In this document: one piece after another, positions 3,380-54,362 of the stretch
Position numbering within the stretch: position 1 is the first letter of the stretch
How the letters are laid out: every line of letters begins with the position of its first letter
Source: Actinosynnema sp. ALI-1.44
Lineage (GTDB): Bacteria; Actinomycetota; Actinomycetes; Mycobacteriales; Pseudonocardiaceae
Assembly: GCF_001984155.1 (NCBI RefSeq)
Contig: NZ_MTQO01000053.1
Span: 372,001-436,000, forward strand
Direction of reading: 5' to 3'
Length of the DNA: 64,000 nucleotides
Notes under the pieces: generated by a model
Told to the model about the DNA's origin: nothing
The model's input: the letters and a program-made list of their open reading frames with translations, nothing else
The model's database searches: none
Translations under genes and position numbers: made by a program

Positions 3380-3408
3380 CTACTCACAAGTAGTATTACC
3401 GCGAGTAG
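3380..3408. promoter_or_regulatory. Divergent fadA2/fabG4 operator
   Basis: CTACT-CACA-AGTAG at 3380-3393 matches the palindrome YTACT-N4-RGTAR found at three other promoter regions in this window. A second, offset element TTACC-GCG-AGTAG (3-base spacer) lies at 3396-3408. The pair sits 38 bp upstream of the fadA2 ATG and 13 bp upstream of the fabG4 ATG, so a bound repressor would block both promoters. The proposed ligand is the TetR protein encoded at 5751-6398; that assignment is inference from the matching site in its own promoter. Confidence 0.6.
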
Positions 3409-3420
3409 GGAGGCGTCACG

Positions 3421-4737
3421 ATGACCGATGGCTACAGCCGATTCGCTCGTTCGGGACCAGGAAAACTCCTGGTCAAACGGCTAGGACTGCCCAATCCGGC
3501 ACCGTTGCTGCGGTATCGGGCCGGACAGCCCGCACTGCCCGGACCAGCGGTTGTCGGGTCGGCCAAGGGTGGCCGCCTCGAAGAGCAGATCCGCAAGACC
3601 CTCGCCCAGTCCGGCGTCGACGTCATCGACACGGCCGATCGACCAGGCGCTTTGGTGTTCGACGCGACCGGCATCGACAGCCCCGAGCGGCTGCGTGAGC
3701 TTTACGACTTCTTCCACGCGCGCATCCGGGGTATTGCCCCGTCCGGACGCGTCGTGGTTCTCGGCACAACGCCGGACGGCTCGAAGGAGTCGATCCCGCA
3801 GCGCGCGCTCGAAGGCTTCACGCGCTCGGTCGGCAAGGAACTCAAGCGCGGCGCCACCGCGCAGTTGGTGTACGTCGCACCCGGAGCCGAGGACAACATC
3901 GAGTCGACCCTGCGGTTCCTGCTGTCGGCCAAGTCCACCTACGTCGACGGCCAGGTGATCCGGATCGGCGAGGGCACGGTCACCCGCCCGGAGAACTGGC
4001 TCACGCCGTTGGAAGGCAAGGTCGCACTGGTCACCGGCGCGTCACGCGGCATCGGCGCGTCCATCGCCGACGTGCTCGCCCGCGACGGCGCCCACGTCGT
4101 CGTCCTGGACATCCCCGCACAGGGCGAAGAGCTCTCCAAGGTGGCCAACCGCGTCGGCGGCTCGGCACTGCAACTCGACATCACCGCGCCGGAAGCGCCC
4201 ACCCAGCTCGCCGAGTACTTCAAGACACGCCACGGCGGCGTCGACATCGTCGTGCACAACGCGGGCATCACCCGTGACAAGACGCTCGCCAACATGACAG
4301 ACGCCCAATGGGACTCGGTGCTGTCGGTGAACCTGGCCTGCCAGTTGCGGATCAACGACGTCCTGCTGGAGGGAACGCTGAAGCCCGGCGGCCGGATCGT
4401 CGGCGTCTCGTCGATCGCGGGCATCGCGGGCAACGTCGGCCAGACCAACTACGGCACCAGCAAGGCCGGCGTGATCGGCATGGTGAACGCCTACGCGCCA
4501 CTGCTGGCCGAGCAGGGCGGCACGATCAACGCGGTCGCGCCCGGCTTCATCGAGACGAAGATGACCGCCGCGGTGCCGTTGTTCATCAGGGAAGCCGGTC
4601 GCCGGATGAACAGCATGTCCCAGGGCGGGCTGCCGGTGGACGTCGCCGAGGCGATCGCCTGGTACGCCAGCCCGGCATCCGGCGGGGTGAACGGCAACGT
4701 GGTACGCGTCTGCGGCCAGAGCCTGATCGGAGCCTGA
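3421..4737 (+). CDS. fabG4: 3-oxoacyl-ACP/CoA reductase, high-molecular-weight FabG4 type
   Basis: A 438-residue short-chain dehydrogenase of the two-domain FabG4 type. Residues 1-190 form a degenerate flavodoxin-like domain. The C-terminal Rossmann domain carries TGASRGIG at about 205-212, HNAG at 279-282, and the catalytic set Ser331, Tyr344 and Lys348 (YGTSK). It reduces 3-ketoacyl thioesters to (R)-3-hydroxyacyl thioesters, or the reverse. GGGAGG precedes the ATG. It is followed after 3 bases by the MaoC hydratase gene, so the two enzymes are co-translated and act in consecutive steps. M. tuberculosis FabG4 (Rv0242c) has the same neighbours. Confidence 0.92.
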   Translation: MTDGYSRFARSGPGKLLVKRLGLPNPAPLLRYRAGQPALPGPAVVGSAKGGRLEEQIRKTLAQSGVDVIDTADRPGALVFDATGIDSPERLRELYDFFHARIRGIAPSGRVVVLGTTPDGSKESIPQRALEGFTRSVGKELKRGATAQLVYVAPGAEDNIESTLRFLLSAKSTYVDGQVIRIGEGTVTRPENWLTPLEGKVALVTGASRGIGASIADVLARDGAHVVVLDIPAQGEELSKVANRVGGSALQLDITAPEAPTQLAEYFKTRHGGVDIVVHNAGITRDKTLANMTDAQWDSVLSVNLACQLRINDVLLEGTLKPGGRIVGVSSIAGIAGNVGQTNYGTSKAGVIGMVNAYAPLLAEQGGTINAVAPGFIETKMTAAVPLFIREAGRRMNSMSQGGLPVDVAEAIAWYASPASGGVNGNVVRVCGQSLIGA

Positions 4738-4740
4738 CCC

Positions 4741-5586
4741 ATGCCGATCACGCACACCCACGAACTGGACGCTCCGCCCAACCTGCTGGCGCTGTACGGC
4801 AAAGCCGCCATCACCGGCATCGGCAGGCGAGGCGGCTCTCTGCCGTCCACTGTGTACAGCCGGTCGACGGTGGCGATCGACCAGGAACACCTGGCCCGCT
4901 ACGCCAAGGTCTGCGGCTTCCGCCTCACCGACCAGCTGCCGGTGACGTACCCGCACATCCTCGGTTTCTCGTTGCAGGTCAAGCTGATGACCGACAGCGA
5001 CTTCCCCTTCCCGCTGGTCGGCACAGTGCACGCGGCCAACCGCATCACTCAGGTGCGCCCTTTGTTCGTGACCGACGCGCCTCAGTTGCGTGTGCACGTG
5101 GAGAACCTGCGCGACCATCCCAAGGGCAAGCAGTTCGACGTGATCACCGAAGCCCTCCTCGGCGAGGAACTGGTGTGGCACAGCACCAGCACCTACTTGC
5201 GTCGCAAGGGCTCCGGCTCGTCCGGGGAGAAGAAAGCCACCGAAGCCCCCAAGGCGCAGGCGGAGTGGTACGTCCCGGACGATATAGGCCGCCGTTACGG
5301 CGAGGTCTCCGGCGACCGCAACCCGATCCACCTGCACGCGCTGACCGCCAAACTGTTCGGGTTCCCCCGCGCGATCGCGCACGGGATGTGGACGAAAGCC
5401 CGCAGCATCGCCGCTTTCGAAGGACGGCTGCCGGAGGCGTACACGGTCGACGTGTCGTTCAAGCTACCGGTGATGCTGCCGTCGAAGGTCGGCTTCGCCG
5501 GTGTTCGCACCGACGAGGGGTGGGGGTTCGAGCTGTTCAACGCCCGCACGGGCAAACCCCACCTCAGCGGCAGGATCACCGGCTGA
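4741..5586 (+). CDS. htdX: (R)-specific enoyl-CoA hydratase, MaoC family (HtdX-like)
   Basis: A 281-residue double-hotdog MaoC dehydratase. The hydratase-2 motif YGEVSGDRNPIHLH is at 186-199 with the catalytic pair Asp192 and His197; the N-terminal hotdog is degenerate, as in HtdX (Rv0241c, 280 aa). It interconverts trans-2-enoyl and (R)-3-hydroxyacyl thioesters, the substrate or product of the FabG4 protein encoded just upstream. It is the last gene of the fabG4-htdX operon and is followed by a dispersed repeat rather than a clear terminator hairpin. Confidence 0.9.
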   Translation: MPITHTHELDAPPNLLALYGKAAITGIGRRGGSLPSTVYSRSTVAIDQEHLARYAKVCGFRLTDQLPVTYPHILGFSLQVKLMTDSDFPFPLVGTVHAANRITQVRPLFVTDAPQLRVHVENLRDHPKGKQFDVITEALLGEELVWHSTSTYLRRKGSGSSGEKKATEAPKAQAEWYVPDDIGRRYGEVSGDRNPIHLHALTAKLFGFPRAIAHGMWTKARSIAAFEGRLPEAYTVDVSFKLPVMLPSKVGFAGVRTDEGWGFELFNARTGKPHLSGRITG

Positions 5587-5620
5587 CGGCCGTACTTTCA
5601 CGCCCATGGGATCATCGGCG

Positions 5621-5725
5621 AATCTGGTTGTCCACAACTGACCGGTAACCCCGTTGACCAGGCCTGTTGCCGATAGACTGGAGCCGGGGACGCCCCCCGG
5701 GTTGGGCGGGGGACTGTTATGGGGA
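5621..5725 (+). repeat. Dispersed ~105-bp repeat, copy 1 (DnaA-box containing)
   Basis: This segment reads AATCTGGTTGTCCACAAC at its start and ends in GGGGGACTGTTATGGGGA. It matches the minus strand of 28053-28156 with about 10 mismatches and 4 single-base indels over 105 positions in my hand alignment. It contains TTGTCCACA (5628-5636), the actinobacterial DnaA-box sequence, and a GC-rich core CCCCCCGGGTTGGGCGGGGG able to form a short hairpin. It carries no convincing ORF. It lies between the convergent genes htdX and tetR; the other copy also lies between convergent genes. Confidence 0.75.
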
Positions 5726-5750
5726 TGGTGGGCTTGGGAAGGCTGGGGAA

Positions 5751-6398
5751 TCAGTGGTCGGATGGTGACCAGGTGTTTCCTTCCACCAGGTCGCCGAAGC
5801 CCATCCAGACCAGGTTCATCAGCCAGGCCACCACTGTCCTCGTCGGCACTGCCGGGTGGTCGAGCCACCAGTCCGCCAGTGATTCGCTGGCGCCGACGAG
5901 GGCCGCGGACATCGCCTCCGTGCTCTTCTGCGCGTGTTCGTCCATGCCTCGTTTGGTGGCGACTCCCACCAGCAGCGCGTCGACCAGGGTGATCGCCCTT
6001 GAGCGCATCGCCAGTACTTCGTCGCTGAACGGGCCGCCCTGTGAGATCACCTGGCGGTGGAGCACCCGCCAGCTTTGCTTGTTGCCGCCCACGAACTCGA
6101 AGAAGGCTTTCAAACCCATCCACAGCTGCATGTCCGGGGCCACGGTCGCGTCCACGCCTGCCACGATCGCTTCGAGCAGCAGGCCCGCCTCGCGCCTGAT
6201 GCACGCCGCGAACAGGTCTTCCTTCGAGCCGAGGTAGGCGTAGATCATCGGTTTGGACACGCCCGCGACCTCGGAGACCTCGTCCATCGAGGCCTCGTGG
6301 TACCCGTGCTCGGAGAACACGCGGACGGCCGCGTCCAGGATCTGCTTCTCCCGGACTTCCCGTGGTAGCCGTTTGACACGCCTGTCCTCCACGCTCAC
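5751..6398 (-). CDS. TetR-family regulator, candidate controller of the fatty-acid regulon
   Basis: A 215-residue TetR repressor. The N-terminal helix-turn-helix reads ILDAAVRVFSEHGYHEASMDEV and then VAGVSKPMIYAYLGSKEDLF, the classic TetR signature; the C-terminal helices form the ligand pocket. I prefer the GTG at 6398 because GGAGGGG lies about 10 bases upstream; an in-frame ATG at 6437 would add 13 residues. It is divergent from two SCP2-like genes. The intergenic region holds TTACT-CCGG-AGTAG (6459-6472), the same palindrome as in the fadA2/fabG4, fadE5 and etfD promoters, so autoregulation and control of those genes is likely. By analogy with FadR/FasR-type TetR proteins the inducer could be an acyl-CoA. 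Confidence 0.88.
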   Translation of the reverse strand: MSVEDRRVKRLPREVREKQILDAAVRVFSEHGYHEASMDEVSEVAGVSKPMIYAYLGSKEDLFAACIRREAGLLLEAIVAGVDATVAPDMQLWMGLKAFFEFVGGNKQSWRVLHRQVISQGGPFSDEVLAMRSRAITLVDALLVGVATKRGMDEHAQKSTEAMSAALVGASESLADWWLDHPAVPTRTVVAWLMNLVWMGFGDLVEGNTWSPSDH

Positions 6399-6458
6399 CG
6401 CATCCACCCCTCCGCGTCTCGTACGACAGATTGCCATCGTATCTACCCGACCGTATTC

Positions 6459-6472
6459 TTACTCCGGAGTAG
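6459..6472. promoter_or_regulatory. Operator in the tetR/SCP2 divergent promoter
   Basis: TTACT-CCGG-AGTAG, with the 12-bp core TACTCCGGAGTA fully self-complementary. It lies 61 bp upstream of the tetR GTG and 17 bp upstream of the SCP2-like ATG. On the opposite strand it shares CCTACTC with the fadA2/fabG4 operator. Confidence 0.6.
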
Positions 6473-6489
6473 GTAACGAGGAGGCGTTC

Positions 6490-7131
6490 ATGCCCGACCT
6501 CAGTGTTGAGGCCATCAGCCGGCTCAGCCCCAGTGAGCTGATCGCGCTGATCGACCAGTTGGAACCCACGACCGAGGGCCTCGGCGACATCGACATCGAC
6601 GAGGTCGCGCGGCTGATCGACCCGGCGAGGCTCAAGGGCGACGAGTTCGTCCGGCTGATCTCCGGCCTGCAACGGCTGTCCGGCGGGAGCGTCGACATCG
6701 CCAGGATGGGCCCGCGGACCTTCGCCCGGCTCATCTCGGGCGCGTCGAAGAGCCAGCTCGACGAGGTGCTGTCGCGTCCCGAGCTGCGTGCGTTGATCCT
6801 CGGCGAGATCTTCCGCCGGATGACCACGCACCTGCGCAAGGAGAAGGCACGCGACGTCAACGCTGTCGTGCACTGGCGGTTCTCCGGGGGCAGCGGCGAA
6901 GGCGGCTACGACCGCTACGAGACCGTCATCGCGGACGGCGCCTGCACGGTCAACCAGGACATGGCGAACTCCAGCCGGGTCACGATCACCATGCCGCCGC
7001 AGGACTTCCTGCGCCTGATCACGTCGAACGCGTCGGCTCCTGTGCTGTTCATGACGGGCAAGCTCAAGCTGCGGGGTGACCTGCCGTTCGCCGCGGGCAT
7101 GCTCAGCATGTTCGACCTGCCGAAGCCTTGA
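6490..7131 (+). CDS. SCP2 sterol-binding-fold protein (first of a tandem pair)
   Basis: A 213-residue protein. The N-terminal half has short helical repeats with the pattern LxxxxFxRLIxxL (about residues 15-90). The C-terminal half (from VVHWRFSGGSGEGGYDRYETVI to LPFAAGMLSMFDLPKP) follows the SCP2-like lipid-binding fold. SCP2 proteins bind acyl-CoA, sterols or other lipids in a hydrophobic tunnel. GAGGAGG lies upstream of the ATG at 6490. It overlaps the next gene by 4 bases (TTGA), and that gene is its paralogue. Its position next to the TetR and under the shared operator suggests it carries or senses acyl chains. Function remains inferred. Confidence 0.82.
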   Translation: MPDLSVEAISRLSPSELIALIDQLEPTTEGLGDIDIDEVARLIDPARLKGDEFVRLISGLQRLSGGSVDIARMGPRTFARLISGASKSQLDEVLSRPELRALILGEIFRRMTTHLRKEKARDVNAVVHWRFSGGSGEGGYDRYETVIADGACTVNQDMANSSRVTITMPPQDFLRLITSNASAPVLFMTGKLKLRGDLPFAAGMLSMFDLPKP

Positions 7132-7706
7132 GGACCTGGCACCGGCTGGCGGACGAGCCGAAGCTGGGTGCGTTCGACGAGTTCGCCCGGTCGATCGACC
7201 TCGAGAAACTCGACCCCGGCCAGTTCGTCCGTCTCATCGAGACGATGGACATGCTCGGCAGGGCCGGTACCGGCATCGAACTCGCCGGGTTGAGCACCAG
7301 CACGTTCGTCCGGATCATCGAGCAGGCGTCGGCCGCGCAGCTCGACGCCCTGATGGAACACACCGAACTGCGTTCGGTCGTGCTGGCCGAGCTGTTCGGG
7401 CGGATGGGCAGGCACCTCAAACCCGGCGCGCCGAACCTGGTGCTGCACTGGCGGTTCACCGGCGGCTGCGAAGCCGGTGGCTACGACCGCTACCAGACCG
7501 TCATCGAGAATGGACAGTGCGTCTCGGGAATCGTGCAGGACCGCGATCCCCGTGCGACTGTCACCATCGTCCCGACGGACTTCCTGAAGGTCGCGACCGG
7601 CAACGCGTCCGCGCCGCTGCTGTTCCTGCGTGGGCGGGTGAAGGTCAAGGGGGACATCCCCTGCGTCGCTAACTTCCCGAACCACTTCGACCTATCGAGT
7701 CCTTGA
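7128..7706 (+). CDS. SCP2 sterol-binding-fold protein (second of a tandem pair)
   Basis: A 192-residue paralogue of the preceding gene, starting at a TTG inside the overlapping TTGA. Shared landmarks are FARSIDLEKLDPGQFVRLI, LHWRFTGG followed by EAGGYDRYQTVI, and VPTDFLKVATGNASAPLLF. The N-terminal region is shorter than in the first copy by about 20 residues. Co-translation and similarity indicate a local duplication and possibly a heterodimer. Its 3' end overlaps the convergent MocR gene by 38 bp, so the two transcripts are antisense there. Confidence 0.8.
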   Translation: MRTWHRLADEPKLGAFDEFARSIDLEKLDPGQFVRLIETMDMLGRAGTGIELAGLSTSTFVRIIEQASAAQLDALMEHTELRSVVLAELFGRMGRHLKPGAPNLVLHWRFTGGCEAGGYDRYQTVIENGQCVSGIVQDRDPRATVTIVPTDFLKVATGNASAPLLFLRGRVKVKGDIPCVANFPNHFDLSSP

Positions 7707-9021
7707 GCACGGCGACCGCGTCGGTCACCGAGCTGTCCGCCAGGTTGCCGTAGCCCAGCACGAGCGCCGGATCGCCGGGACGGGTGCGGTACGCGTCCAT
7801 GCTGACCAGCTTCAGCCCCTGGGCCGCCGCGTGGTCGACCACTTCGGACGCGTCGGTGTCCAATGGCAACACCAGGTGCAGGCCCGCCGCCGCGCCGGAG
7901 ACGGTCAACGGGTCGAGCGATTCCAGCAGGGCGTCGCGCCTGGCGCGGTAGCGCAGTCTTGCCGCCCGCAGGTACCGGTGGTACGAGCCCTGCTCGATGA
8001 AAGTGGCCAGTGCCAACTGGTTCACGACCGACGGCGCCGCCTTCGGCACCCTTTCGGTCCACTGTGGTGGGACTACGTACCAGCCGATGCCGAGCGCCGG
8101 GCTCAGCGTCTTGCTGACCGAGCCGAACAGGAAGACCCGCCGGGGATCCATGCCCTGCACGGTGCCGACCGGCTTGCGGTCGTAGCGGAAGTCGGCGTCG
8201 TAGTCGTCCTCCAGGATCACCCCGTCGACGTCCCGCGCCCACGACAACAACGCCGCCCGCCGCTCCGGTGAGAGCACGACACCGGACGGGAACTGGTGCG
8301 CGGGCGTCACGACCACCGCGCGCACCCCTGCTGGGATGTCGGAAACGCGCAGGCCGCCCGGGTCGACGGGCACGGGGACGATCTCCAGCCCGGCTTCCTC
8401 GGCAGCGCGCCAGACCTTCGTCCAGCCCGGTTCCTCCACCGCGATGCGCGTGATGCCCTCGGCGTGCAAAGCGCGGCCGACGAGTGTCACGCCGTGGCAG
8501 ACCCCGGACGAGACGAGTACGTCGTTGGTGACCGCGCCACGGGTTCGGTGCAGGAACTCGGCCAGCACTGTGCGCAATCGGGGATGACCGCCTGCGGTCG
8601 GCAAGCCCAGATCGGTGTGCGGCGCCGCCGACAGCGCGTCGCGGACCGCGTCCGCCCAGCGCTTACGTGGAAACGCGCGCAGGTCCGGCAGACCGGGTGC
8701 GAGGTCGTGACGCGGCGGGACAGGGGCGGGCTTCGGTGGCACGGGACGCCAGACCTCGTCCGCCCAACAGTGCACGCGGGTGGCCGAACCGGCACGGGCC
8801 TCCAGGTAGCCCTCGGCGACCAGCTGCGCGTACGCCTGCGTGACCACCCACCGCGAGCACTGCAGATCCCCCGCCAGCCTGCGGCTCGGTGGCAGCGTCG
8901 CGCCCTTGCGCAGAACCCCGTCCCGGATCGCGCCGCGCAACGCGCGGGCGAGCTGGTCCGCCCCGGGGCCGGACACGTCCAGCAGGACGTCCCACCCCAA
9001 ATTGGTCTGCGATCTACTCAC
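7669..9021 (-). CDS. MocR-type regulator (GntR wHTH fused to aminotransferase fold)
   Basis: A 450-residue protein. The N-terminal GntR winged helix contains LPPSRRLAGDLQCSRWVVTQAY and LVAEGYLEARAGSAT. The C-terminal fold-type-I aminotransferase domain has the PLP landmarks EDDYDADFRYD and FGSVSKTLSPALGIGWY, where the Lys (about residue 304) should form the PLP Schiff base. Regulators of this kind (PdxR, GabR) respond to PLP or amino compounds. The GTG at 9021 follows TACTAC/TACAGT at a distance suited to a leaderless message; an ATG at 9069 would overlap the divergent gene. It probably controls that aldo/keto reductase. Confidence 0.88.
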   Translation of the reverse strand: MSRSQTNLGWDVLLDVSGPGADQLARALRGAIRDGVLRKGATLPPSRRLAGDLQCSRWVVTQAYAQLVAEGYLEARAGSATRVHCWADEVWRPVPPKPAPVPPRHDLAPGLPDLRAFPRKRWADAVRDALSAAPHTDLGLPTAGGHPRLRTVLAEFLHRTRGAVTNDVLVSSGVCHGVTLVGRALHAEGITRIAVEEPGWTKVWRAAEEAGLEIVPVPVDPGGLRVSDIPAGVRAVVVTPAHQFPSGVVLSPERRAALLSWARDVDGVILEDDYDADFRYDRKPVGTVQGMDPRRVFLFGSVSKTLSPALGIGWYVVPPQWTERVPKAAPSVVNQLALATFIEQGSYHRYLRAARLRYRARRDALLESLDPLTVSGAAAGLHLVLPLDTDASEVVDHAAAQGLKLVSMDAYRTRPGDPALVLGYGNLADSSVTDAVAVLKDSIGRSGSGS

Positions 9022-9067
9022 GGAAGTGGACTGTAGTACCGGACCGATCGGTTCTAGGTTGGGTCGC
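9022..9067. promoter_or_regulatory. Divergent mocR/AKR promoter
   Basis: Only 46 bp separate the two starts. TAGGTT at 9056-9061 is a plausible -10 element for a leaderless aldo/keto reductase message, and on the other strand GGTACTACAGT serves the MocR gene. The bases GACCGATCGGTTC between them form a partial palindrome that could be the MocR site. Confidence 0.35.
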
Positions 9068-10030
9068 ATGAAGAGAGTTCAACTGGGAGAACAGACCGTC
9101 AGCCAGGTCGCGCTCGGCTGCATGGCCATGGGCACGCTCGCGGACAAGCCGACGTCCGGCCGCATCCTGGACGCCTACCTCGACGCGGGCGGCGACTTCC
9201 TGGACACCGCCGACTGCTACTCGTGGTGGAACTCGGACACGAGCGAAGGCGGCGAGAGCGAGCAGATCCTCGGCGAACTGCTGAAAGGCAGGCGCGACAA
9301 GGTCTTCCTCGCCACCAAGGTGTCGGCGATGATCACCGACTACGCGGCGGCACGCGAAACCGGCAACGCCGAGCCGTACTTCGTCGGCGCGGGCGCCGAC
9401 GTGATCCGGCGTGGCATCGACGACAGCCTCCGCAGGCTCAAGACCGACCACGTCGACCTCTACTACATCCACGTCGACGACATGGCGACTCCGCTGGAGG
9501 AGACGCTGCAGGCGCTGGACGAGATCGTGCGGGCGGGCAAGGTCCGCTACATCGGCTGGAGCAACGTCTGGACCTGGCGGTTGGAGCGGATCCGCGCGCT
9601 GGCCCGCGCCAACGGCTGGGCCGTGCCGATCGTCGCGCAGCAGCAGTTGACGTACCTCGAACCGGTGCGCAGCCGTCGCAATGTCGCGGCCGCCGACATG
9701 CTGGCGTGGCTGGAGCACAACCCGGACGTCACGTTGGCCGCGTACGCGCCGATCCTCCAGGGTTCCTATGAAGAAGGGGGGAGGAGCAAGTCGATCTACA
9801 AGCAGTACGACAGCCCGGAAGCCGACGCGAAGCTGGCGGCTCTCGGCAAGGTCGCGCGGGAGCTGGGCGTGACCAACAGCCAAGTCGTGCTGGCCTGGTT
9901 GTTGCAGGTGTCGAACCAGGTCGCGCCGATCGTCGGACCACGGACCTGGGCGCACTACGAGGCGTACGCGCGTTCGTTCGACCTGGAGCTGTCGCCGGAA
10001 CACGTTGCCCTGCTTGACGATGCTCAGTAG
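9068..10030 (+). CDS. Aldo/keto reductase
   Basis: A 320-residue TIM-barrel NADPH-dependent oxidoreductase. It opens with the usual LGEQTVSQVALGCMAMG. The catalytic tetrad is readable: FLDTADCY (Asp, Tyr), FLATKV (Lys) and DLYYIHVDD (His). The RYIGWSNVWTWRL and WLLQVSNQVAPIVGPRT segments form the cofactor site. Substrates are unknown; members reduce aldehydes, sugars or ketones. An unusual feature is the extended loop with SWWNSDTSEGGESEQ after the active-site Tyr. It is divergent from a MocR regulator and overlaps the convergent AraC gene by 7 bp. Confidence 0.9.
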   Translation: MKRVQLGEQTVSQVALGCMAMGTLADKPTSGRILDAYLDAGGDFLDTADCYSWWNSDTSEGGESEQILGELLKGRRDKVFLATKVSAMITDYAAARETGNAEPYFVGAGADVIRRGIDDSLRRLKTDHVDLYYIHVDDMATPLEETLQALDEIVRAGKVRYIGWSNVWTWRLERIRALARANGWAVPIVAQQQLTYLEPVRSRRNVAAADMLAWLEHNPDVTLAAYAPILQGSYEEGGRSKSIYKQYDSPEADAKLAALGKVARELGVTNSQVVLAWLLQVSNQVAPIVGPRTWAHYEAYARSFDLELSPEHVALLDDAQ

Positions 10031-10758: not shown

Positions 10759-10809
10759 CCGTCGCCTTTGTTCAATACACGCCCCGCCGACCACCCTACT
10801 GTTGCGCGC

Positions 10810-12686: not shown

Positions 12687-12689
12687 GGG

Positions 12690-19503: not shown

Positions 19504-19516
19504 TCTGGAGATTCCC

Positions 19517-28282: not shown

Positions 28283-30115
28283 TCAGAAGGCTGCTTCGTC
28301 GATCTCCATCAGGGAGTTGTCGGCGGCTTCCACGATCTTGCGGCCTGCGGAGAGCTCGGGCAGGACGTTGCGTGCGAAGAACGACGCCACGGCCACCTTG
28401 CCCTCGTAGAACGCCTTGTCGCGGGCGGAGACCTCGCCGGACAGCGCGCCGAGCGCCACCTCTGCCTGGCGCAGCAGCTGCCAGCCGATCAGCAGGTCAC
28501 CGGTTGCCAGCAGCAGGCGGACCGTGTGCTGGCCGACCTTGTTGATGTTCTGCGGGTCTTCCTGTGAGCTGGTCAGGTGGCCGATCAGGGCGCCGATGAT
28601 GCCCTGGACGTCCTCGAGGGCCTGCTTGAGAGCCGCGCGCTCTTCCTTCAGCCTGCCGTTCCCGCCTTCTTCCGCCAGGAAGTTGTTGATCTCCCCGGCC
28701 ACGAAGGCCAGTGCCTGGCCCTTGTCGCGGACGATCTTGCGGAAGAAGAAGTCGAGGGACTGGATCGCCGTCGTTCCCTCGTACAGCGAGTCGATCTTGG
28801 CGTCCCTGATGTACTGCTCGATCGGGTAGTCCTGCAGGAAGCCGGAACCGCCGAGGATCTGCAGCGACTGGGTCAGCTGCTCGTAGGCGCGCTCCGAGCC
28901 GACGCCCTTCACGATCGGCAGCAGCAGGTCGTTGATCCTGGAGTTCAGGTCCGTGTCCTCGCCGAGCGCGATGCGGTCCTGGAAGGTCGCGGTGTACAGG
29001 TACACCGCGCGCAGGCCTTCGGCATACGCCTTCTGCAGCATGAGGCTGCGGCGCACCTCCGGGTGGTGCGTGATGGTCACGCGGGGCGCCGCCTTGTTGA
29101 GCATGTTCGGCAGGTCCGCGCCCTGCACGCGCTCCTTGGCGTAGTCCAGCGCGTTCAGGTAGCCGGTCGACAGCGTCGCGATGGCCTTCGTGCCGACCAT
29201 CATCCGGGCGTACTCGATCACCTGGAACATCTGCGCGATGCCGTCGTGCACGTCGCCGAGCAGCCAGCCCACCGCCGGGGTGCCGTGCTGGCCGAAGGTC
29301 AGCTCACAGGTGGCCGACGCGTTCAGGCCCATCTTGTGCTCGACGTTGGTCACGAAGGCGCCGTTGCGCTCGCCTCGTTCGCCCGTCCGCGAGTCGAAGT
29401 GGAACTTCGGGACCAGGAAGAGGCTCAGGCCCTTCGTGCCCGGCCTCGTCTCGATGCCGGGGCCTTCCGGGCGGGCCAGCACCAGGTGCATGATGTTGTC
29501 GGTCATGTCCTGGTCGGCGGAGGTGATGAAGCGCTTCACGCCGTCCAGGTGCCAGCTGCCGTCCTCCTGCAGCACGGCCTTGGTGCGCGCGGCGCCGACG
29601 TCCGAGCCCGCGTCCGGCTCGGTCAGCACCATCGTGGCGCCCCAGCCCTGGTCGATCATCAGCTCGGCCCAGTGCTTCTGCTCGTCGTTGCCGTTGCGGT
29701 GCACGACCTCGGCGAAGTTCGGCCCGGCCATGTACATGAACAGCGCCGGGTTCGAGCCGAGGATCAGCTCGGCCGCCGCCCAGGTCACCGACGGCGGGAT
29801 GCCGAGGCCGCCGAGCTCGTTGCTCAGGCCGATCCGGTACCACTCGCCGTCCCACAGCGCCTGGTAGGACTTCTTGAAGCTCTCGGGGAGCGTCACCGAG
29901 AACGTCTTCGGGTCGTACGTGGTGCCCTGCCGGTCACCGTCGACGAAGGAGTCCGCGAGGGGGCCGACGGCCACCTTGTTCAGCTCCGACAGCACGCCAC
30001 GCGCCGTGTCCTCGTCCGCCTCCGCGAACGGTCCCGTGCCGAGCCGCTCCTGGACTTTGAACACCTCGAAGAGGTTGAACTCCAGGTCGCGAACGTTGCT
30101 CTTGTAGTGGGCCAT
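28283..30115 (-). CDS. fadE5: Acyl-CoA dehydrogenase, FadE5 type
   Basis: A 610-residue acyl-CoA dehydrogenase, the long form with extended N- and C-termini. The start [19 protein letters not shown] is close to FadE5 (Rv0244c). The FAD/substrate region has [19 protein letters not shown] and [16 protein letters not shown], and the C-terminal half has [23 protein letters not shown] followed by [12 protein letters not shown]; the catalytic Glu is expected in YEGTTAIQ. It oxidises acyl-CoA to trans-2-enoyl-CoA and passes electrons to ETF. The ATG at 30115 has GGGGAG upstream; longer readings run into the regulator gene. Two operator copies lie 45-82 bp upstream. In mycobacteria fadE5 is adjacent to fadA2-fabG4; here it is 25 kb away but shares the operator. 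Confidence 0.93.
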
Positions 30116-30159: not shown

Positions 30160-30197
30160 CTACTCGCCGGTAACAACAGGATATTACTTGCCGGTAA
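30160..30197. promoter_or_regulatory. Double operator upstream of fadE5
   Basis: CTACT-CGCC-GGTAA (30160-30173) and TTACT-TGCC-GGTAA (30184-30197) are two direct copies of YTACT-N4-RGTAR, 24 bp apart, about two helical turns plus three bases. They share the extended core ACT-NGCC-GGTAAC. They lie in the only gap between the LuxR gene and fadE5. Confidence 0.6.
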
Positions 30198-41673: not shown

Positions 41674-41747
41674 CGGGATCTCTTCGCGTCTGCGGGCAAC
41701 CGCTGGGACGGGTGCGTCCGTACTAAGCGGCGACCGAGGAGGGACCG

Positions 41748-43021: not shown

Positions 43022-43040
43022 CCGACGTGCCCAGCCCGGA

Positions 43041-43727: not shown

Positions 43728-43737
43728 AGTCCCGATA

Positions 43738-44352: not shown

Positions 44353-44465
44353 TTCAGGTATCCATCAGTGCCTTGCCCGCCGTCGACGGGGATGTGTGCG
44401 CCGTTGATGACGCTAGCCCTTGGCGACGCGAGGAACGCCACCAGTGCCGCCCCTTCGTCGTCCTC
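44349..44465 (-). pseudogene. C-terminal remnant of a short-chain dehydrogenase
   Basis: The minus strand reads EDDEGAALVAFLASPRASVINGAHIPVDGGQGTDGYLK and stops at 44349. This is the usual C-terminal end of an SDR (xxVxFLxSxxAxxINGxxxxVDGG), but no Rossmann motif, Ser-Tyr-Lys triad or start is found upstream; the frame becomes unrelated before 44465. The TGA overlaps the CoxG ATG (ATGA), as a working operon gene would. It appears to be the remains of an SDR deleted when the divergent promoter region was formed. Confidence 0.65.
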
Positions 44466-44552
44466 GCTTCGGGAGTCCCAACTCCGACCACAACCACGAG
44501 AATGGGGTCCGACGTCAGATGATCGCTCGGGGACGAGGCTTATGTTGAAATA

Positions 44553-44562
44553 TGGTATACCA
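44553..44562. promoter_or_regulatory. GntR-type palindrome in the molybdenum hydroxylase promoter
   Basis: TGGTATACCA is a perfect 10-bp palindrome 20 bases upstream of the GTG of the FAD subunit gene. FCD-subfamily GntR regulators commonly bind TNGTATACNA-type sites, and such a regulator is the last gene of this operon (50456-51085). Confidence 0.6.
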
Positions 44563-44582
44563 AACGTGCCGGAAGGGGCCCT

Positions 44583-47725: not shown

Positions 47726-48201
47726 AGGACATCCACCTGATCGCACTCACGGTCAACGGCACCGAGCACGAGATCGTGGTCGAGTCCCGGCGCACGCTCG
47801 CCGACGTGCTGCGGCACGACCTGGGCTACACCGGTACGCACGTCGGCTGTGAGCACGGCATCTGCGGTGCCTGCACGGTTCTGCTCGACGGTCAGCCGGT
47901 ACGGGCCTGCCTGATCTTCGGTGTACAGGCGGACGGCTGCGAAGTCCGCACGGTCGAAGGCCTCGCCGACGGTGACGAGCTCTCCGACCTGCAGAAAGCG
48001 TTCAGCCGCTGCCACGGGCTGCAGTGCGGGTTCTGCACGCCGGGGTTCCTGATGCTCGCCGAGGCCTATCTGTCCGAACAGGACGGTGTGCCGGACGAGT
48101 CGGAGGTCCGTGAGGTGATGGCGGCCAACCTCTGCCGGTGCACCGGCTACCAGGGGATAGTCGACGCGGTCCGGCAGGTCGCCGAGGAGCGCGCGGGATG
48201 A
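47722..48201 (+). CDS. Molybdenum hydroxylase 2Fe-2S subunit
   Basis: A 159-residue iron-sulfur subunit. The N-terminal plant-type ferredoxin domain has CEHGICGAC and a later Cys in VRACLIF. The C-terminal alpha-helical domain binds the second cluster with CGFC and CRCTGY. Both clusters are complete. The ATG at 47722 overlaps the first L stop (ATGA) and the stop overlaps the second L start. As the only iron-sulfur subunit here it must serve both L subunits. Confidence 0.93.
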   Translation: MKDIHLIALTVNGTEHEIVVESRRTLADVLRHDLGYTGTHVGCEHGICGACTVLLDGQPVRACLIFGVQADGCEVRTVEGLADGDELSDLQKAFSRCHGLQCGFCTPGFLMLAEAYLSEQDGVPDESEVREVMAANLCRCTGYQGIVDAVRQVAEERAG

Positions 48202-50459
48202 CGGCGATCGGCGAGCGCCTGCCGCGCAAGGAGGATTCCCGCCTGCTGCGCGGTCTCGGCCGGTTCTGCGACGACCAGGACCGGGCTGGCCAGGTGTGGA
48301 TGCGCGTGGTTCGTTCGCCGATCGCCCACGGCAGGCTGGTGTCGGTCAGGAAACCTGGAAACGCTGCCAGCGGCAGTGTCGTCACGGCTGAGGACCTGCC
48401 GCCGGGCGTGCGCATCCCGGTCCGCCTCAACGTGCAGGGCATCGACCTGACCGATCACCTGCAACCGGTTCTCGCAGCTGGGGAGGTCCGGTACGTCGGG
48501 GAGCCCGTTGCCGTGGTGATCGCGGACGATCCGTACGAGGCCGAGGACATCGCCGAGCGCGTCGAGGTCGAGATCGACGAGCTACCAGTCACAGTGGACA
48601 CCGCAGCGGGCACGCTGGCCGCGGAGTTCGAACTGGGCTACGGCGACGTGGCGAGCGCGTTCGCCCAGGCAGCGCACGTCGTCGGGATCGAGTTCGACAT
48701 CGGCAGGCACAGCGCGGTCCCGTTGGAGCCGCGGGCGTTGCTCGCCGACGTGGACCCGGCAACAGGGGCGTTGCAGATCTTCGGCATGACCAAGGTTCCG
48801 GTGTTCAACCGGGACGTGCTCGCGGGCATGCTCGGCATCGACGAACACCTGATCCACGTGCACGCCATGGACACCGGCGGCGGCTTCGGCGTGCGCGGCG
48901 AGTTCTACCCGGAGGACTTCCTGGTCGGATGGCTGGCCCGGAAACTGCGCCGCCCGGTCAAGTGGGTGGAGGACCGGGCCGAACACCTCGTCGCGGTCAA
49001 CCACTCCCGCCAGCAGCACCACGTCATCTCGGCGGCGTTCGACGAGAACGGGACGCTGCTCGGGCTGAAGGACGACGTGCTGCACGACAACGGCGCGTAC
49101 GCCAGGACGCACGGGATCATCGTGCCCGAGCTGACGTTGGCGATGCTGCCGGGCCCGTACCGCGTCCCGGCGTTCCACGGGCGCATCCGCGTCATGCTGA
49201 CCAACAAGACTCCGTGCGGTACCTATCGCGCGCCGGGCCGATTCGAGGGAACCTCGGTCCGTGAGCAGCTGTTCGACGTCGCGGCGGACCGGATGGGCGT
49301 CGACCGCGTGGAACTGAGGCGCAGGAACCTGCTCACCGCGGACGAACTGCCGCACACCAGGGCGATGAGCACCCTCGGCACGGACGTCGTGCTCGACTCG
49401 GGCGACTACGTCGGCCTGCTGGACAAGGCGGTGGTCGAAGCCGACCGCCTCGGTTACCAGTCCCAGCTGGAATCGCTGCGGGCACGCGGGCACACCGCAG
49501 GTCTCGGCGTCGCGGTGTTCCTGGAGAAGAGCGGCCTCGGGCCACAGGAGACCGCGGACGTCGTGGTCGGCACGTCCGGCGAGGTCCGCGTGCACTCCGG
49601 CGGAACCTCGCTCGGTCAAGGCATCGAGACCGTGCTGGCGCAGGTCACGGCGGACGCGCTGACCGTGGACCCGGCGGTGGTGACCGTGGTCAACGGCGAC
49701 ACGGTGCTGCAGCCGTTCGGTGGTGGGTCATGGGCGTCGCGGTCCACAGTCGTCGGTGGCAGTGCGGTGCACAAGGCCGCCTTGGCGGTACGGGAACGCG
49801 CGATCCAGTTGGCTGCCCGGATGCTGGAGGTGTCCGAGGACGACCTCGATGTCACCGCGGGCGCGATCGGCGTCAAGGGCGCGCCGGGCACCAGTGTGTC
49901 GTACGCCGAGGTCGCGAAGGCCGCCCGACCAGGCAGTCCGCATCTGCGCGACGACGAACCCGCAGGGCTGTCCGCGCGACGCAGGTTCGAGGTCGAGCAC
50001 ATGACCTATCCGTACGGTGTGCACTTCGCGCTGGTGGACGTGGACACCGGGACGGGTCACGTGAAGGTGTTGCGCTACCTGGTGGCGTACGAAGTCGGCA
50101 GGGCGATCAACCCGACATTGGTCGAAGGTCAGCTACTCGGTGGTGTCGCACAGGGGGTTGGTGGCGCTTTGCTGGAGGAGTTCCGGTACGACGATGCCGG
50201 ACAACCACAGGCGGTGACGTTCATGGACTACCGGATGCCGACGGCGGCGGAGTTGCCGCACGTCGACATCCTGGTGGCCCAGGACGCTCCGGCACCGGGC
50301 AATCCCCTTGGGGTGAAGGGAGCCGGTGAAGGCGGAGTGACCGCGGCGGGCGCGTCGATCGCGGGGGCGATCAGGGACGCGCTGAGCCTCACCGGTCCGG
50401 TGGGGCGGTTGCCGATGACCGCGGAGCGGGTGCGCGGTCTGATCGAGGAGGGGACATGA
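48198..50459 (+). CDS. Molybdenum hydroxylase catalytic subunit, second copy
   Basis: A 753-residue paralogue of the first L subunit. It begins GERLPRKEDSRLLRGLGRFCDD. The MoCo motifs are TGGGFGVRGEFYPED, GGTSLGQGIETV, WASRSTVVGG and GAGEGGVTAAGAS with Glu near 711. The active-site loop reads GTYRAPGRFEG (about 343), close to form II enzymes but different from the first copy. Key residues are kept, so both copies look active. Two unlike catalytic subunits sharing one S and one M subunit would suit two substrates or a mixed heteromer. Confidence 0.9.
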   Translation: MTAIGERLPRKEDSRLLRGLGRFCDDQDRAGQVWMRVVRSPIAHGRLVSVRKPGNAASGSVVTAEDLPPGVRIPVRLNVQGIDLTDHLQPVLAAGEVRYVGEPVAVVIADDPYEAEDIAERVEVEIDELPVTVDTAAGTLAAEFELGYGDVASAFAQAAHVVGIEFDIGRHSAVPLEPRALLADVDPATGALQIFGMTKVPVFNRDVLAGMLGIDEHLIHVHAMDTGGGFGVRGEFYPEDFLVGWLARKLRRPVKWVEDRAEHLVAVNHSRQQHHVISAAFDENGTLLGLKDDVLHDNGAYARTHGIIVPELTLAMLPGPYRVPAFHGRIRVMLTNKTPCGTYRAPGRFEGTSVREQLFDVAADRMGVDRVELRRRNLLTADELPHTRAMSTLGTDVVLDSGDYVGLLDKAVVEADRLGYQSQLESLRARGHTAGLGVAVFLEKSGLGPQETADVVVGTSGEVRVHSGGTSLGQGIETVLAQVTADALTVDPAVVTVVNGDTVLQPFGGGSWASRSTVVGGSAVHKAALAVRERAIQLAARMLEVSEDDLDVTAGAIGVKGAPGTSVSYAEVAKAARPGSPHLRDDEPAGLSARRRFEVEHMTYPYGVHFALVDVDTGTGHVKVLRYLVAYEVGRAINPTLVEGQLLGGVAQGVGGALLEEFRYDDAGQPQAVTFMDYRMPTAAELPHVDILVAQDAPAPGNPLGVKGAGEGGVTAAGASIAGAIRDALSLTGPVGRLPMTAERVRGLIEEGT

Positions 50460-51085
50460 CAGAGTCCGTACAACCGGCGTTGAACTACGTCAGCAAGACC
50501 GACATGGTGGTCGCGCTGATCCGTGAGTTGATCATCACCGGTGAACTGCCCGCGGGCAAGCAGCTCAGACAACGCGATCTCGCCGCGCGGTTCCACGTCA
50601 GCCAGACGCCGGTCCGCGAGGCGATGCGCAGGCTGGAGTCCGAAGGGCTGGTGGTCGGCGACGCCCACCGGGGGTTCACCGTCGTCGAGGCCGACTCCGG
50701 CTCGACCGAGGAGAACTTCCAGATCCGCGCGGCGCTGGAGTCGCTCGGCGCGGCGCTGGCCGCACCGAAGATCGACGAGGCCGGGATCGCCAGGCTGACC
50801 GACCTGAACGAGCGGATGCGCGGACTCGCCGAGAACGACCCGCTCTACCCCGAGCTCAACCGGGAGTTCCACTTCACGCTCTACGAGTACTCGCACAGCC
50901 CGCTGCTGCTGTCGCTGATGCGGCTGCTGTGGCAGGCGCTGCACGGCGGCCCGCGCGTGAACCGCAGCCACGCCGAGTCGATCAGCCAGCACGAGCTGAT
51001 CATCGACGCGCTGCGCCGGGGCGACACCGAAGGCGCGCGCAAGGTGACCTACGAGCACATCATGGGCGCGCTTCCGCTGGGCTGA
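50456..51085 (+). CDS. GntR-family regulator, FCD subfamily
   Basis: A 209-residue regulator. The N-terminal winged helix has ITGELPAGKQLRQRDLAARFHVSQTPVREAMRRLESEGLV. The C-terminal FCD domain has NREFHFTLYEYSHSPLL and SISQHELIIDALRRGD, whose His residues bind a metal and carboxylate ligand. It is translationally coupled (ATGA) to the second L subunit, so the operon encodes its own regulator. The TGGTATACCA palindrome at 44553-44562 is its probable site. Confidence 0.9.
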   Translation: MTESVQPALNYVSKTDMVVALIRELIITGELPAGKQLRQRDLAARFHVSQTPVREAMRRLESEGLVVGDAHRGFTVVEADSGSTEENFQIRAALESLGAALAAPKIDEAGIARLTDLNERMRGLAENDPLYPELNREFHFTLYEYSHSPLLLSLMRLLWQALHGGPRVNRSHAESISQHELIIDALRRGDTEGARKVTYEHIMGALPLG

Positions 51086-51096
51086 GGTGGAGCAGC

Positions 51097-52092
51097 TCAA
51101 CCGTGCAGTTCCCTGCCGTAGCGCGCCAGAACCTTGGCGCGCAGGACAGGGTCGTTGCGCGGCACGGGTTCCAGGAAGATCTCGGTCAGTTCGGCGAACT
51201 CCGCCCGCAGGTCGGCCTCGATCCGGACGCACGCCCGTTCGAGGTCGGCCGCGCCCAGCTCGTCGTCGAAGTCCAGCCGGGCGCACAGCAGCACGCTGTC
51301 GGTGCCGGTGGTCATCGTCAGCAGGTCGACGACCGCCTCGACTTCCGGCGTCTTGCGCAACCGCATGCCCACCGCCTTGACCAGCACGGGGTCGGCCTGG
51401 CGGCCGATCAGCAGGCCCCGGTTGGTCCGGCTGAGCAGGTACGCCACGGCCGCGAGCAGCAGGCCGATCATGACCGACGCGATGCCGTCCGCCAGTTGTG
51501 ACCCGGTGAGCTGGTGCAACCCGATCCCGGCGAACGCGATGAGCAGGCCGACCAGCGCGGCACTGTCCTCGAACAGGACGGTCTTGCTCGTCGGATCGTC
51601 GCTCTGGCGCAGGTATTCGGACAACGAGCGGTTCTCGGCCCTGGCGTCTCGGCGGGTCTGGCGCACGGCCTGCGTCCACGAGATCGACTCCAGCGCGAAC
51701 GCCAACGCCAGCACGACGTACGCGACAACCGGCGACTCCTGTTCGACCGGCTCACCGAAGATGGCCGAAAAGCCTTCGTAGAAAGAGAAAACCGCACCGG
51801 ATACGAAGATCGACACGGCTGCGAGCAACGACCAGAAGTAGCGTTCCTTGCCGTAGCCGAAGGGATGCGTGCGGTCGGCCGGTCGTGCGGACGTGCGCAA
51901 CGCGGTGAGCAGCAACGCTTCGGTGAACGTGTCGGCGACCGAGTGCGCGGCCTCGGCGAGCATCGCGGCCGAGCCGGTGATCAACCCGGCGATCGCCTTC
52001 ATGATCGCGATCGCCAGGTTGACCAGGAGTGCCAGTACGACGGTGAGCGTGCTCTCGCCGCCCGGTTTGTCCTCTTTGGTCTCGCGCGCCAT
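51097..52092 (-). CDS. Cation diffusion facilitator family transporter
   Basis: A 331-residue CDF transporter with about six helices and a cytoplasmic C-terminal domain (VGMRLRKTPEVEAVVDLLTMTTGTDS). The metal site in the second helix is AEAAHSVADTF (HxxxD). The matching site in the fifth helix reads FEDSAALVG instead of HxxxD/DxxxD, a substitution seen in one branch of the family and likely to change metal preference. The ATG at 52092 has GAGGGG upstream. Probable role: Zn, Co or similar metal export. Confidence 0.88.
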   Translation of the reverse strand: MARETKEDKPGGESTLTVVLALLVNLAIAIMKAIAGLITGSAAMLAEAAHSVADTFTEALLLTALRTSARPADRTHPFGYGKERYFWSLLAAVSIFVSGAVFSFYEGFSAIFGEPVEQESPVVAYVVLALAFALESISWTQAVRQTRRDARAENRSLSEYLRQSDDPTSKTVLFEDSAALVGLLIAFAGIGLHQLTGSQLADGIASVMIGLLLAAVAYLLSRTNRGLLIGRQADPVLVKAVGMRLRKTPEVEAVVDLLTMTTGTDSVLLCARLDFDDELGAADLERACVRIEADLRAEFAELTEIFLEPVPRNDPVLRAKVLARYGRELHG

Positions 52093-52141
52093 GCCCCTCA
52101 GTGTGGCGGTCGGGACCTGGGCGTGCACGGCAACCCGGCCG

Positions 52142-54328
52142 TCAGCGGAGGCTGGGGGACTCCTCAGCCGGTTCCGGCTCGGGCTCCGGCTTGGGCTGGC
52201 CGCGCTTGACGGCGGTGAGCAACAACTGCGACACGTCCACGACCTCGACGTGCTCGCCCGCCATGCCGTCGCTCTTGCGCTGGGTGAGGCCGTCGTTGAG
52301 CATCACGCGGCAGAACGGGCAACCGGTGGCGATCTTCGTCGGAGCCGTGCCGAGGGCCTCGTCGACGCGGGCCACGTTGATGCGCTTGCCGATCCGCTCC
52401 TCCATCCACATCCGCGCGCCACCGGCGCCGCAGCACATGGACTTGTCGGCGTGCCGTGGCATCTCGCGCATGGACACGCCCGAGGACTCGATCAGCTCAC
52501 GCGGTGCCTCGTAGACCTTGTTGTGACGGCCCAGGTAGCACGGGTCGTGGTACGTGACGTCCTCCGCCACGGGGGCGACCGGCACCAGTTTGCGCTCGCG
52601 CACCAGCTTGTTGAGCAGTTGCGTGTGGTGCACGACCTCGAACGTGCCGCCGAGCTCCGGGTATTCGTTGCCCAGCGTGTTGAAGCAGTGCGCGCAGGTC
52701 GCCACGATCTTCTTGACCTTGCGGTCCTCGAAGACGCCGTTGAGCACTTCCACGTTCTGCTGCGCCAGCATCTGGAACAGGAACTCGTTGCCCGCGCGCC
52801 GGGCCGGGTCGCCGGTGCAGGCTTCCTCCGAGCCGAGCACCACGTACTTCACGCCCGCGATGTGCAGCAACTCGGCGACCGCACGGGTGGTCTTCTTCGC
52901 CCGGTCCTCGAACGCGCCCGCGCAGCCGACCCAGAACAGGTACTCGAAGTCCTGGCTGCCGTCGAACACCGGGACCTCGAAGTCCAGGTCCTCGGTCCAC
53001 TGCAACCGGTCCTTGGCGTTCTGGCCCCACGGGTTGCCCTTGTTCTCCAGGTTCTTGAACATCCCGTTCAGCTCGGCCGGGAAGTTCGACTCGATCAGCA
53101 CCTGGTAGCGGCGCATGTCGACGATGTGGTCGACGTGCTCGATGTCCACCGGGCACTGCTCGACGCACGCGCCGCAGGTCGTGCAGGACCACAGCGCGTC
53201 CGGGTCGATGACGTCGCCGACGAGCGCCTTCTCCGACTCGGCCAGTGCGAGCACGTCGATGCCCGCGTGCGACTCCAGGCCGATCTCGTCACCGGCCATG
53301 TCACGCTTGCCGCCCGCCAGCAGGTACGGCGCCTTGGCGTACGCGTGGTCGCGCAGCTGGGTGATGACCAACTTGGGCGACAACGGCTTCTCGGTGTTCC
53401 ATGCCGGGCACTGGGACTGGCAGCGCCCGCACTCGGTGCACGTGGTGAAGTCCAGCCAGCCCTTCCAGGAGAAGTCCTCGACCTTGCCGGCGCCGAAGAC
53501 GTCCTTCTCCGGGTCGGCCTCCTCGAAGTCCAGCGGCTTGCCACCGCTCATCATCGGCTTGAGCTTGCCGAGCGCGGTGCCTTCCTCGCGCTTGAAGTAG
53601 ATGTTGAAGAACGCGGTGAAGCGGTGCCACGCCACACCCATGGTCTGGTTCAGCGAGATCACGATCAGCCAGACCATCGCGGAGAAGATCTTCATCGCGG
53701 CGAAGATCGAGACCAGCGCGGGCTCGGCGGGCAGCACCGAGCCGATCAGCTTCGAGATCGGCGCGGACCACGTCGGCACGTCGAAGTAGCCGGCGGCGTA
53801 CTTGGCGGCTCGGATGCCCATCACGCCGAGGCCTTCGACCAGCACGATCGCCTCGACGAAGTACGCGCGTCCCATCCGGGACCCGGTGAACCGCGACGAG
53901 CGGCCCTTGAACCGGGGGTGGTTGCTCTGCCTGATGTAGATCAGGCCGAGGATGCCGAGGACCGTGGCCAGCCCCAGCAGTTCGACGAACAGGTTGTACG
54001 GGCCCCAGTGCCCGATCCACGGCAGGTCCCAGCTGGGCACGAACACCTCGCCGTACGCGGCGACGACGCTCAGGATCAGCCCGCCGAACCCGGCCATGAC
54101 GAACCAGTGCAGCACCCCGATGTGGCTCCACTTGAGCATCCGGGTGTGCCCGAGGACCTCTTTGACCATCACGGCCATGCGCCTGCCGAATGGGCCGTTG
54201 CGCGTGGAGTCCGGCTGGCCCAGCCGGATCGTGGCCAGCATGCGCCGCACCGTCATGGTCGTCATGACGATCGCGACCGCGGTCAGCACCACGCAGAGGA
54301 TGCCGAGGATCAGCCCCAAGCCTGTCAT
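52142..54328 (-). CDS. etfD: Membrane ETF:quinone oxidoreductase-like Fe-S protein (EtfD)
   Basis: A 728-residue membrane iron-sulfur reductase like Rv0338c (EtfD), which re-oxidises EtfBA for beta-oxidation. The N-terminal 260 residues contain about five membrane helices of the NarI-like haem b type (IGVLHWFVMAGFGGLILSVVAAYGE has a His). Two 4Fe-4S motifs follow: CTECGRCQSQCP (about 298) and CTTCGACVEQCP (about 382). The C-terminal half has two CCG domains, with GCAGAFEDR and CHFNT-like CAHCFNT in the first and CYLGRHN, CCGAGG and CPFC in the second. The start ATG has no ribosome site and a short leader. One operator copy lies 21 bp upstream. No etfBA genes are in the window. Confidence 0.9.
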   Translation of the reverse strand: MTGLGLILGILCVVLTAVAIVMTTMTVRRMLATIRLGQPDSTRNGPFGRRMAVMVKEVLGHTRMLKWSHIGVLHWFVMAGFGGLILSVVAAYGEVFVPSWDLPWIGHWGPYNLFVELLGLATVLGILGLIYIRQSNHPRFKGRSSRFTGSRMGRAYFVEAIVLVEGLGVMGIRAAKYAAGYFDVPTWSAPISKLIGSVLPAEPALVSIFAAMKIFSAMVWLIVISLNQTMGVAWHRFTAFFNIYFKREEGTALGKLKPMMSGGKPLDFEEADPEKDVFGAGKVEDFSWKGWLDFTTCTECGRCQSQCPAWNTEKPLSPKLVITQLRDHAYAKAPYLLAGGKRDMAGDEIGLESHAGIDVLALAESEKALVGDVIDPDALWSCTTCGACVEQCPVDIEHVDHIVDMRRYQVLIESNFPAELNGMFKNLENKGNPWGQNAKDRLQWTEDLDFEVPVFDGSQDFEYLFWVGCAGAFEDRAKKTTRAVAELLHIAGVKYVVLGSEEACTGDPARRAGNEFLFQMLAQQNVEVLNGVFEDRKVKKIVATCAHCFNTLGNEYPELGGTFEVVHHTQLLNKLVRERKLVPVAPVAEDVTYHDPCYLGRHNKVYEAPRELIESSGVSMREMPRHADKSMCCGAGGARMWMEERIGKRINVARVDEALGTAPTKIATGCPFCRVMLNDGLTQRKSDGMAGEHVEVVDVSQLLLTAVKRGQPKPEPEPEPAEESPSLR

Positions 54329-54348
54329 GCGGCTGAAGGTAACGGGGG

Positions 54349-54362
54349 TTACTCGTCAGTAA
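54349..54362. promoter_or_regulatory. Operator upstream of etfD
   Basis: TTACT-CGTC-AGTAA, within the longer palindrome GGTTACTCGTCAGTAACC. It matches YTACT-N4-RGTAR of the fadE5, fadA2/fabG4 and tetR promoters. GGTAAC at 54338-54343 adds an extra half-site. Confidence 0.6.

Follow-up and report, generated by a model that had tools for sequence, protein, structure and literature searches.

A conserved palindrome as the probable operator of an FdmR-type regulon of beta-oxidation genes in Actinosynnema and other Actinomycetia

Palindromic sites at beta-oxidation genes

A 64,000-nucleotide stretch of the genome of Actinosynnema sp. ALI-1.44 (hereafter the window) carries genes for fatty acid breakdown whose four promoter regions share a palindrome. 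Two of these regions are divergent, lying between genes for a fadA2-like thiolase and a fabG4-like reductase and between a tetR gene and a gene for an SCP2-domain protein; the others precede genes for a fadE5-like acyl-CoA dehydrogenase and an etfD-like membrane oxidoreductase (Table 1). The names fadE5, etfD, fadA2 and fabG4 rest on family membership and sequence similarity, and for the fadE5-like and etfD-like proteins no NCBIfam equivalog scored above its cut-off. Only three bases separate fabG4 from the gene for a MaoC-like hydratase, and the two are therefore probably cotranscribed.

A pattern search of the whole window for YTACT-N4-RGTAR (YTACTNNNNRGTAR) returned eight strand matches at five places, every one intergenic, against a mean of 0.05 and a maximum of 2 in 100 dinucleotide shuffles of the window. 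These are exactly the five places listed in the original prediction, which had been made from the letters of this DNA, and its statement that the window holds no other exact match was borne out. A position-weight scan gave the same picture, the five sites scoring 14.4–24.6 and the runner-up, located within a gene, 9.5. At both fadE5 sites one half reads GGTA, and both match on a single strand only. The offset copy with a 3-base spacer, also predicted beside the fadA2/fabG4 site, is present and is the sole occurrence of this 13-base form in the window. Reading of the sequence added a degenerate copy, CTACCCGACCGTAT, next to the main tetR site, which makes the tetR/SCP2 region tandem like those of fabG4/fadA2 and fadE5. 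Two copies are thus found in three of the four promoter regions, 15–16 base pairs (bp) apart at tetR/SCP2 and fabG4/fadA2 and 24 bp apart at fadE5, while the etfD region has one full site and a half-site. The distances from window sites to start codons are 18–69 bp.

Table 1. Genes and candidate operator sites in the window, with DUF6801 loci surveyed outside it
Feature	Position	Strand	Basis or conservation
fadA2-like thiolase	2062..3342	-	PRK09268, 793.6 bits, cut-off 539
Operator CTACTCACAAGTAG, divergent fadA2/fabG4	3380..3393	.	Pattern match; kept in relatives at fabG4/fadA2
Degenerate partner site with a 3-base spacer, making the tandem	3396..3408	-	3-base form also in L074-L078, L096, L108
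fabG4-like 3-oxoacyl reductase	3421..4737	+	PRK08261, 678.7 bits, cut-off 410
MaoC-like R-hydratase, htdX-like	4741..5586	+	Family search
TetR-family regulator (TetR_N + TetR_C_46), FdmR orthologue, proposed reader	5751..6398	-	Family search, reciprocal best hit, fold
Degenerate TAC-N6-GTA copy, 16 bp from main tetR site	6443..6456	.	Sequence reading; 15-16 bp pairs in relatives
Operator TTACTCCGGAGTAG, divergent tetR/SCP2 gene	6459..6472	.	Pattern match; tetR-promoter site in 45/49 related loci
SCP2-domain protein	6490..7131	+	Family search
fadE5-like acyl-CoA dehydrogenase	28283..30115	-	Family search, similarity
fadE5 operator, proximal, 45 bp upstream of start codon	30160..30173	.	Pattern match; also at fadE5 homologues in other families
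fadE5 operator, distal, 24 bp from proximal	30184..30197	.	Pattern match; 27/35 class fadE5 pairs 24-28 bp
etfD-like membrane Fe-S oxidoreductase (CCG/4Fe-4S)	52142..54328	-	Family search, similarity
etfD operator, 21 bp upstream of start codon	54349..54362	.	Pattern match; etfD site in 8/12 class genomes
DUF6801 (PF20611), source genome	L285, L290, L303, L305 (C30, C48, C37, C39)		
DUF6801 (PF20611), elsewhere	L284, L286, L289, L294		

Conservation and genome-wide distribution

Conservation was assessed in 49 related loci (L074-L122 of 55 returned; L123-L128, partial or distant matches, were excluded), the closest named of which encode TetR proteins 87–90% identical to that of the window, so that the source genome ranks as Kibdelosporangium-like. 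The weight matrix was trained on these same loci from the predicted consensus, so the counts that follow are not independent of it. In the 300 bp upstream of the respective gene, sites scoring above 9 were present at tetR in 45/49 loci, at fabG4 in 33/34 and at fadA2 in 33/33; loss of the sites in close relatives, which would have spoken against the original prediction, was not seen. At L098 no site was found counting from the fabG4 start, but one is present on the fadA2 side of the common region. Two fadE5 entries (L099, L118) gave impossible offsets, the gene lying at a contig edge, and all five assessable ones carry the site. The plain pattern was found near tetR in 44/49 loci and, over 965 kb of related loci, matched 109 times against none for the reversed control. 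Two of the loci bear unexpected labels: L074, labelled Rhodococcus rhodnii NRRL B-16535, has a TetR 90% identical to that of the window and is possibly a mislabelled assembly, and L100, labelled Candidatus Melainabacteria, is a Pseudonocardiaceae-type tetR/fabG4 locus with operators, possibly a binning error.

Beyond the family, 42 genomes from other families of the class were examined; in 41 of them the best fadE5 homologue has a site that scores above 11 and lies no more than 300 bp away, compared with 19 of 2100 shuffled windows. These genomes lay outside the training of the matrix and were not randomly drawn (44 of 118 were submitted, 43 matched, G002 giving none, and 42 loci were returned, that of G104 being absent). 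The sole exception, G099, does carry a TetR relative. Among second-copy fadE5 homologues the operator was found in 0/6. In a set of 12 genomes, likewise from other families, the site was present at fadE5 in 12/12, above 11 at fabG4 in eight of the nine with the gene (the ninth scoring 10.3) and above 11 at etfD in 8/12. Tandem spacing goes with the target gene: 40 of the 45 close pairs in related loci are spaced 15–16 bp and the remaining five, at fadE5, 24 bp, whereas 27 of 35 fadE5 pairs across the class are spaced 24–28 bp and five 20–21 bp.

The 11.7-Mb source genome gives 66 strand matches to the pattern and 27 to its reversed form, a control level which means that a share of the asymmetric matches must be due to chance. 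Outside the window the matches fall at 43 places, 36 intergenic and seven within genes, compared with nine and 13 of 22 for the reversed control (Fisher p 0.0007; genes called with our own gene caller, for which 19 window genes served as the training set), and the 15 full palindromes are intergenic without exception. Random occurrence elsewhere in the genome, named beforehand as a possible refutation, is thus excluded only in part, but most of the matches lie between genes.

The scan of neighbours took in fifty proteins and covered 36 of the 43 places, the other seven being mostly matches inside genes. Several neighbours are linked to lipids: a 3-hydroxyacyl-CoA dehydrogenase (L014), an enoyl-CoA hydratase (L013), an acyl-CoA dehydrogenase (L015), a class III CoA-transferase (L016), a thiolase (L027), AMP-binding enzymes (L028, L040), an NAD_binding_4/SDR protein (L009), lipases (L001, L032) and a KAS III-like protein (L035). 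Others, such as SsgA, an ABC transporter, an ion channel and sigma factors, have no evident lipid link. Neighbours of the control matches included no beta-oxidation enzyme (0/10), one ketosynthase and one GDSL lipase, a sample (10 of 12 candidates scanned) too small for an enrichment test. The claim that all targets belong to one pathway consequently holds within the window and fails genome-wide, where pyruvate kinase (L042), an AceE-like gene and DUF6801 genes also adjoin sites. The AceE-like gene, so named on our own reading, is a transketolase-domain gene separated from a DUF3052 gene by a perfect palindrome (L025), which hints at a possible influence of acyl-CoA status on the entry of pyruvate.

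Three DUF6801 genes (L010, L017, L034) are among the site neighbours, and the family was surveyed further (three matches came without a locus). Four of five DUF6801 loci in the source genome have an upstream site above 11, which at one locus reads TACG in a half. In five other genomes, clear sites were found at 1/1 loci in G124, 2/2 in G126 and 1/2 in G127; in G125 several loci together yielded a single weak site (12.0), one half of which is broken, and G120 has 0/2. These operators suggest a fatty-acid-linked role for the family. The predicted model of the domain (predicted local distance difference test score, pLDDT, 94.2) is a beta-rich fold with no match in the PDB at an E value of 0.001 or better; a likeness to MD-1/MD-2 was weak (E about 0.008–0.03, TM-scores 0.17–0.27) and was not used.

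The candidate reader and its alternatives

FdmR (Rv0238) responds to long-chain acyl-CoA and represses genes that degrade and modify fatty acids (PMC12403877), and it regulates fadE5 (PMC9262360). The window TetR and an Rv0238-like protein of genome G082 are reciprocal best hits (41% identity, 128 bits), with 128.5 against 93.9 bits in the forward search and a runner-up at 98.6 bits in the source genome in the reverse one. We label G082 and similar genomes 'mycobacterium-like', and others 'Streptomyces-like', on the basis of their kinship and gene context. In G082 tetR is preceded by a gene that resembles lpqI by eye, and lpqI also precedes Rv0238. A fabG4 gene stands near the regulator both in the window, within 3421-6398, and in G003, G049, G066 and G082, about 1–2.2 kb from tetR. 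Reciprocal best hits, nearby fabG4 and an operator upstream of fadE5 together identify the protein as an FdmR orthologue. It falls outside two other families, scoring 108.9 bits against the NCBIfam FasR equivalog cut-off of 330 and 48.6 bits against that of 200 for Bacillus FadR. Its predicted model (pLDDT 87.5) has a fold that matches 3f1b from Rhodococcus, FasR with C20-CoA or DNA, and Bacillus FadR. In the recognition helix, S-K-P-x-x-Y-x-Y is invariant across the 35 aligned relatives, an alignment from which L114 (stop codon) and L118 were dropped and which many Actinokineospora and Actinophytocola loci never entered.

Because its own promoter keeps the site in nearly all relatives and because of its reciprocal relationship to the Rv0238-like protein, this TetR is the likely reader, as the original prediction had proposed. 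We therefore consider it very probable that the palindrome is the operator of an FdmR-type repressor and that the genes form an FdmR-orthologous regulon of beta-oxidation. One TetR dimer would bind each 14-bp palindrome, the core of which is TAC-N6-GTA and usually TACT-N4-AGTA. The presence of two copies in most of the promoter regions suggests that two dimers are bound together at tandem sites. Bound repressor would cover the core promoter or leader and so shut down beta-oxidation, its electron outlet EtfD and the repressor's own gene, until long-chain acyl-CoA, the presumed ligand by analogy with published FdmR and FasR, entered the C-terminal pocket and freed the protein from DNA. The comparative evidence argues that the regulon is real, and the mechanism is likely to be that of FdmR.

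Several observations weigh against so simple an assignment. Neither the four tetR loci of mycobacterium-like genomes nor the seven of Streptomyces-like genomes contain a site above 9. The fadE5 operator, at scores above 11, is kept in all 20 of the 42 genomes that have no clear FdmR, meaning no TetR hit above 95 bits among the candidates, at most 25, that were scored in each of the 118 genomes; conservation at fadE5 alone does not, therefore, tie the site to this TetR, which need not be its sole reader in the class. In two such genomes the motif is no commoner than its reversed control (G088, 11 against 26; G102, 24 against 27). The single perfect palindrome of G088 lies at fadE5, as do two of the eight that G102 has. 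Moreover, the source genome encodes a FasR-type paralogue with a related helix (C47:466218, 281.7 bits), and fas promoters carry TAC-N6-GTA copies. The G082 FasR-type protein reaches 336.8 bits, against the FasR cut-off of 330.

Since genomes without a clear FdmR keep the operator and fas promoters carry TAC-N6-GTA copies, paralogues may have the operator in common, or it may have persisted while its reader changed. A tentative alternative is accordingly that FdmR and FasR both read the sites, with FasR or a diverged TetR taking over where FdmR is missing, so that a single acyl-CoA operator would serve regulators of degradation and of synthesis. Twelve best TetR hits were scanned from genomes without a clear FdmR, which keep the fadE5 operator; eight are of FasR type (232–255 bits, below the cut-off), two score 89–110 bits and two match no family. 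FasR-type proteins have SKP-x-x-Y in common with FdmR, although an H replaces the otherwise invariant second Y. Of 18 tetR genes that encode best hits in genomes without a clear FdmR, five, including the FasR-type L224 and L230, have a near-site above 11 in the 500 bp upstream, but 13 have none, and the FasR-type gene of the source genome shows no strict match within its 3.5-kb locus. All six fas promoters examined contain two or three copies, in keeping with reports of TAC..GTA clusters at Rv2524c (fas), Rv3229c and Rv3230c (PMC3388012) and of FasR binding to three inverted repeats at fas (PMC7382501). Yet these copies score mostly 7–15, against 14–25 for the window sites, many have CGTA in one half, and the two stronger ones (17.6 and 18.6) sit 171 bp upstream of the others. 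It is also conceivable, though we would not favour it, that the operator at fadE5 predates the protein now reading it. It would then be an acyl-CoA operator of the whole class that kept its sites and tandem spacing while one TetR reader was exchanged for another, with FdmR serving some families and FasR or a diverged TetR others, and to which lineage-specific genes such as those for DUF6801 were recruited.

That an unrelated TetR reads the sites, the tetR gene at 5751 being one target among others, seems improbable. One TetR gene of G102 (L244, 864-1478), whose product is no close relative of FdmR, starts 23 bp from a perfect palindrome, but the reciprocal relationship of the window TetR to FdmR and the site that nearly all its relatives keep in their own promoter argue for the FdmR-type protein instead. 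We do not claim L244 as a reader; its best relative in the source genome is C29:174941 (178.9 bits). Elsewhere in G102 (L265, 1610) a gene starts 96 bp after a perfect palindrome, and its first residues, MKIIALVKHVPD, resemble by eye the beta subunit of electron transfer flavoprotein, which would fit the link to EtfD. Finally, chance or a structural element such as a terminator might account for some matches, given the 27 reversed-control matches and those at L056 1350 and L058 1335, which lie within a terminator-like hairpin between genes and are not counted as operators, but as a general explanation it is hardly credible in the face of the shuffles, the intergenic bias, the positional conservation and the class-wide fadE5 sites.

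Comparison with known regulatory systems

An FdmR-type reading makes available a computable operator for fatty acid breakdown across much of the Actinomycetia, a class that includes antibiotic producers, whose polyketide production draws on the supply of acyl-CoA. EtfD, DUF6801 proteins and lipases are predicted targets, and the question arises of which protein recognises so conserved an operator in genomes that yielded no clear FdmR. No report of the operator outside mycobacteria was found in the open-licence literature searched. The wide conservation of the fadE5 operator, its target-specific tandem spacings and its persistence in all 20 examined genomes that yielded no clear FdmR are apparently new, as are apparently the operators at DUF6801 genes, a family at which no literature search was aimed. 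The core of the motif is not new, contrary to the original prediction, which knew of no published description: FdmR has been published, and a TAC-N6-GTA palindrome in clusters of two or three at mycobacterial fatty acid genes has been in print since 2012 (McGuire et al., PMC3388012).

That motif matches the operator described here in its core and in its clustering in two to three copies at fatty acid genes. It differs in location, the sites named for it lying at fas, Rv3229c and Rv3230c, to which the passages concerned assign no regulator, whereas ours lie at beta-oxidation genes. The FdmR regulon of mycobacteria is alike in its orthologous TetR, its published fadE5 target and the occurrence of the motif, in mycobacterium-like genomes, upstream of both fadE5 and fabG4. 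By contrast, the regulon of the window belongs to the Pseudonocardiaceae, has other additional targets and includes a site in the regulator's own promoter, which was not found in the four mycobacterium-like loci. FasR (Rv3208) shares the predicted fold, a long acyl-CoA ligand and a related helix, but it is an activator of fas-acpS, unlike the proposed repressor, and the window protein falls far below its family cut-off. Bacillus FadR is likewise a TetR regulator of fatty acid degradation with a similar fold, from which the window protein is separated by its low score against that family.

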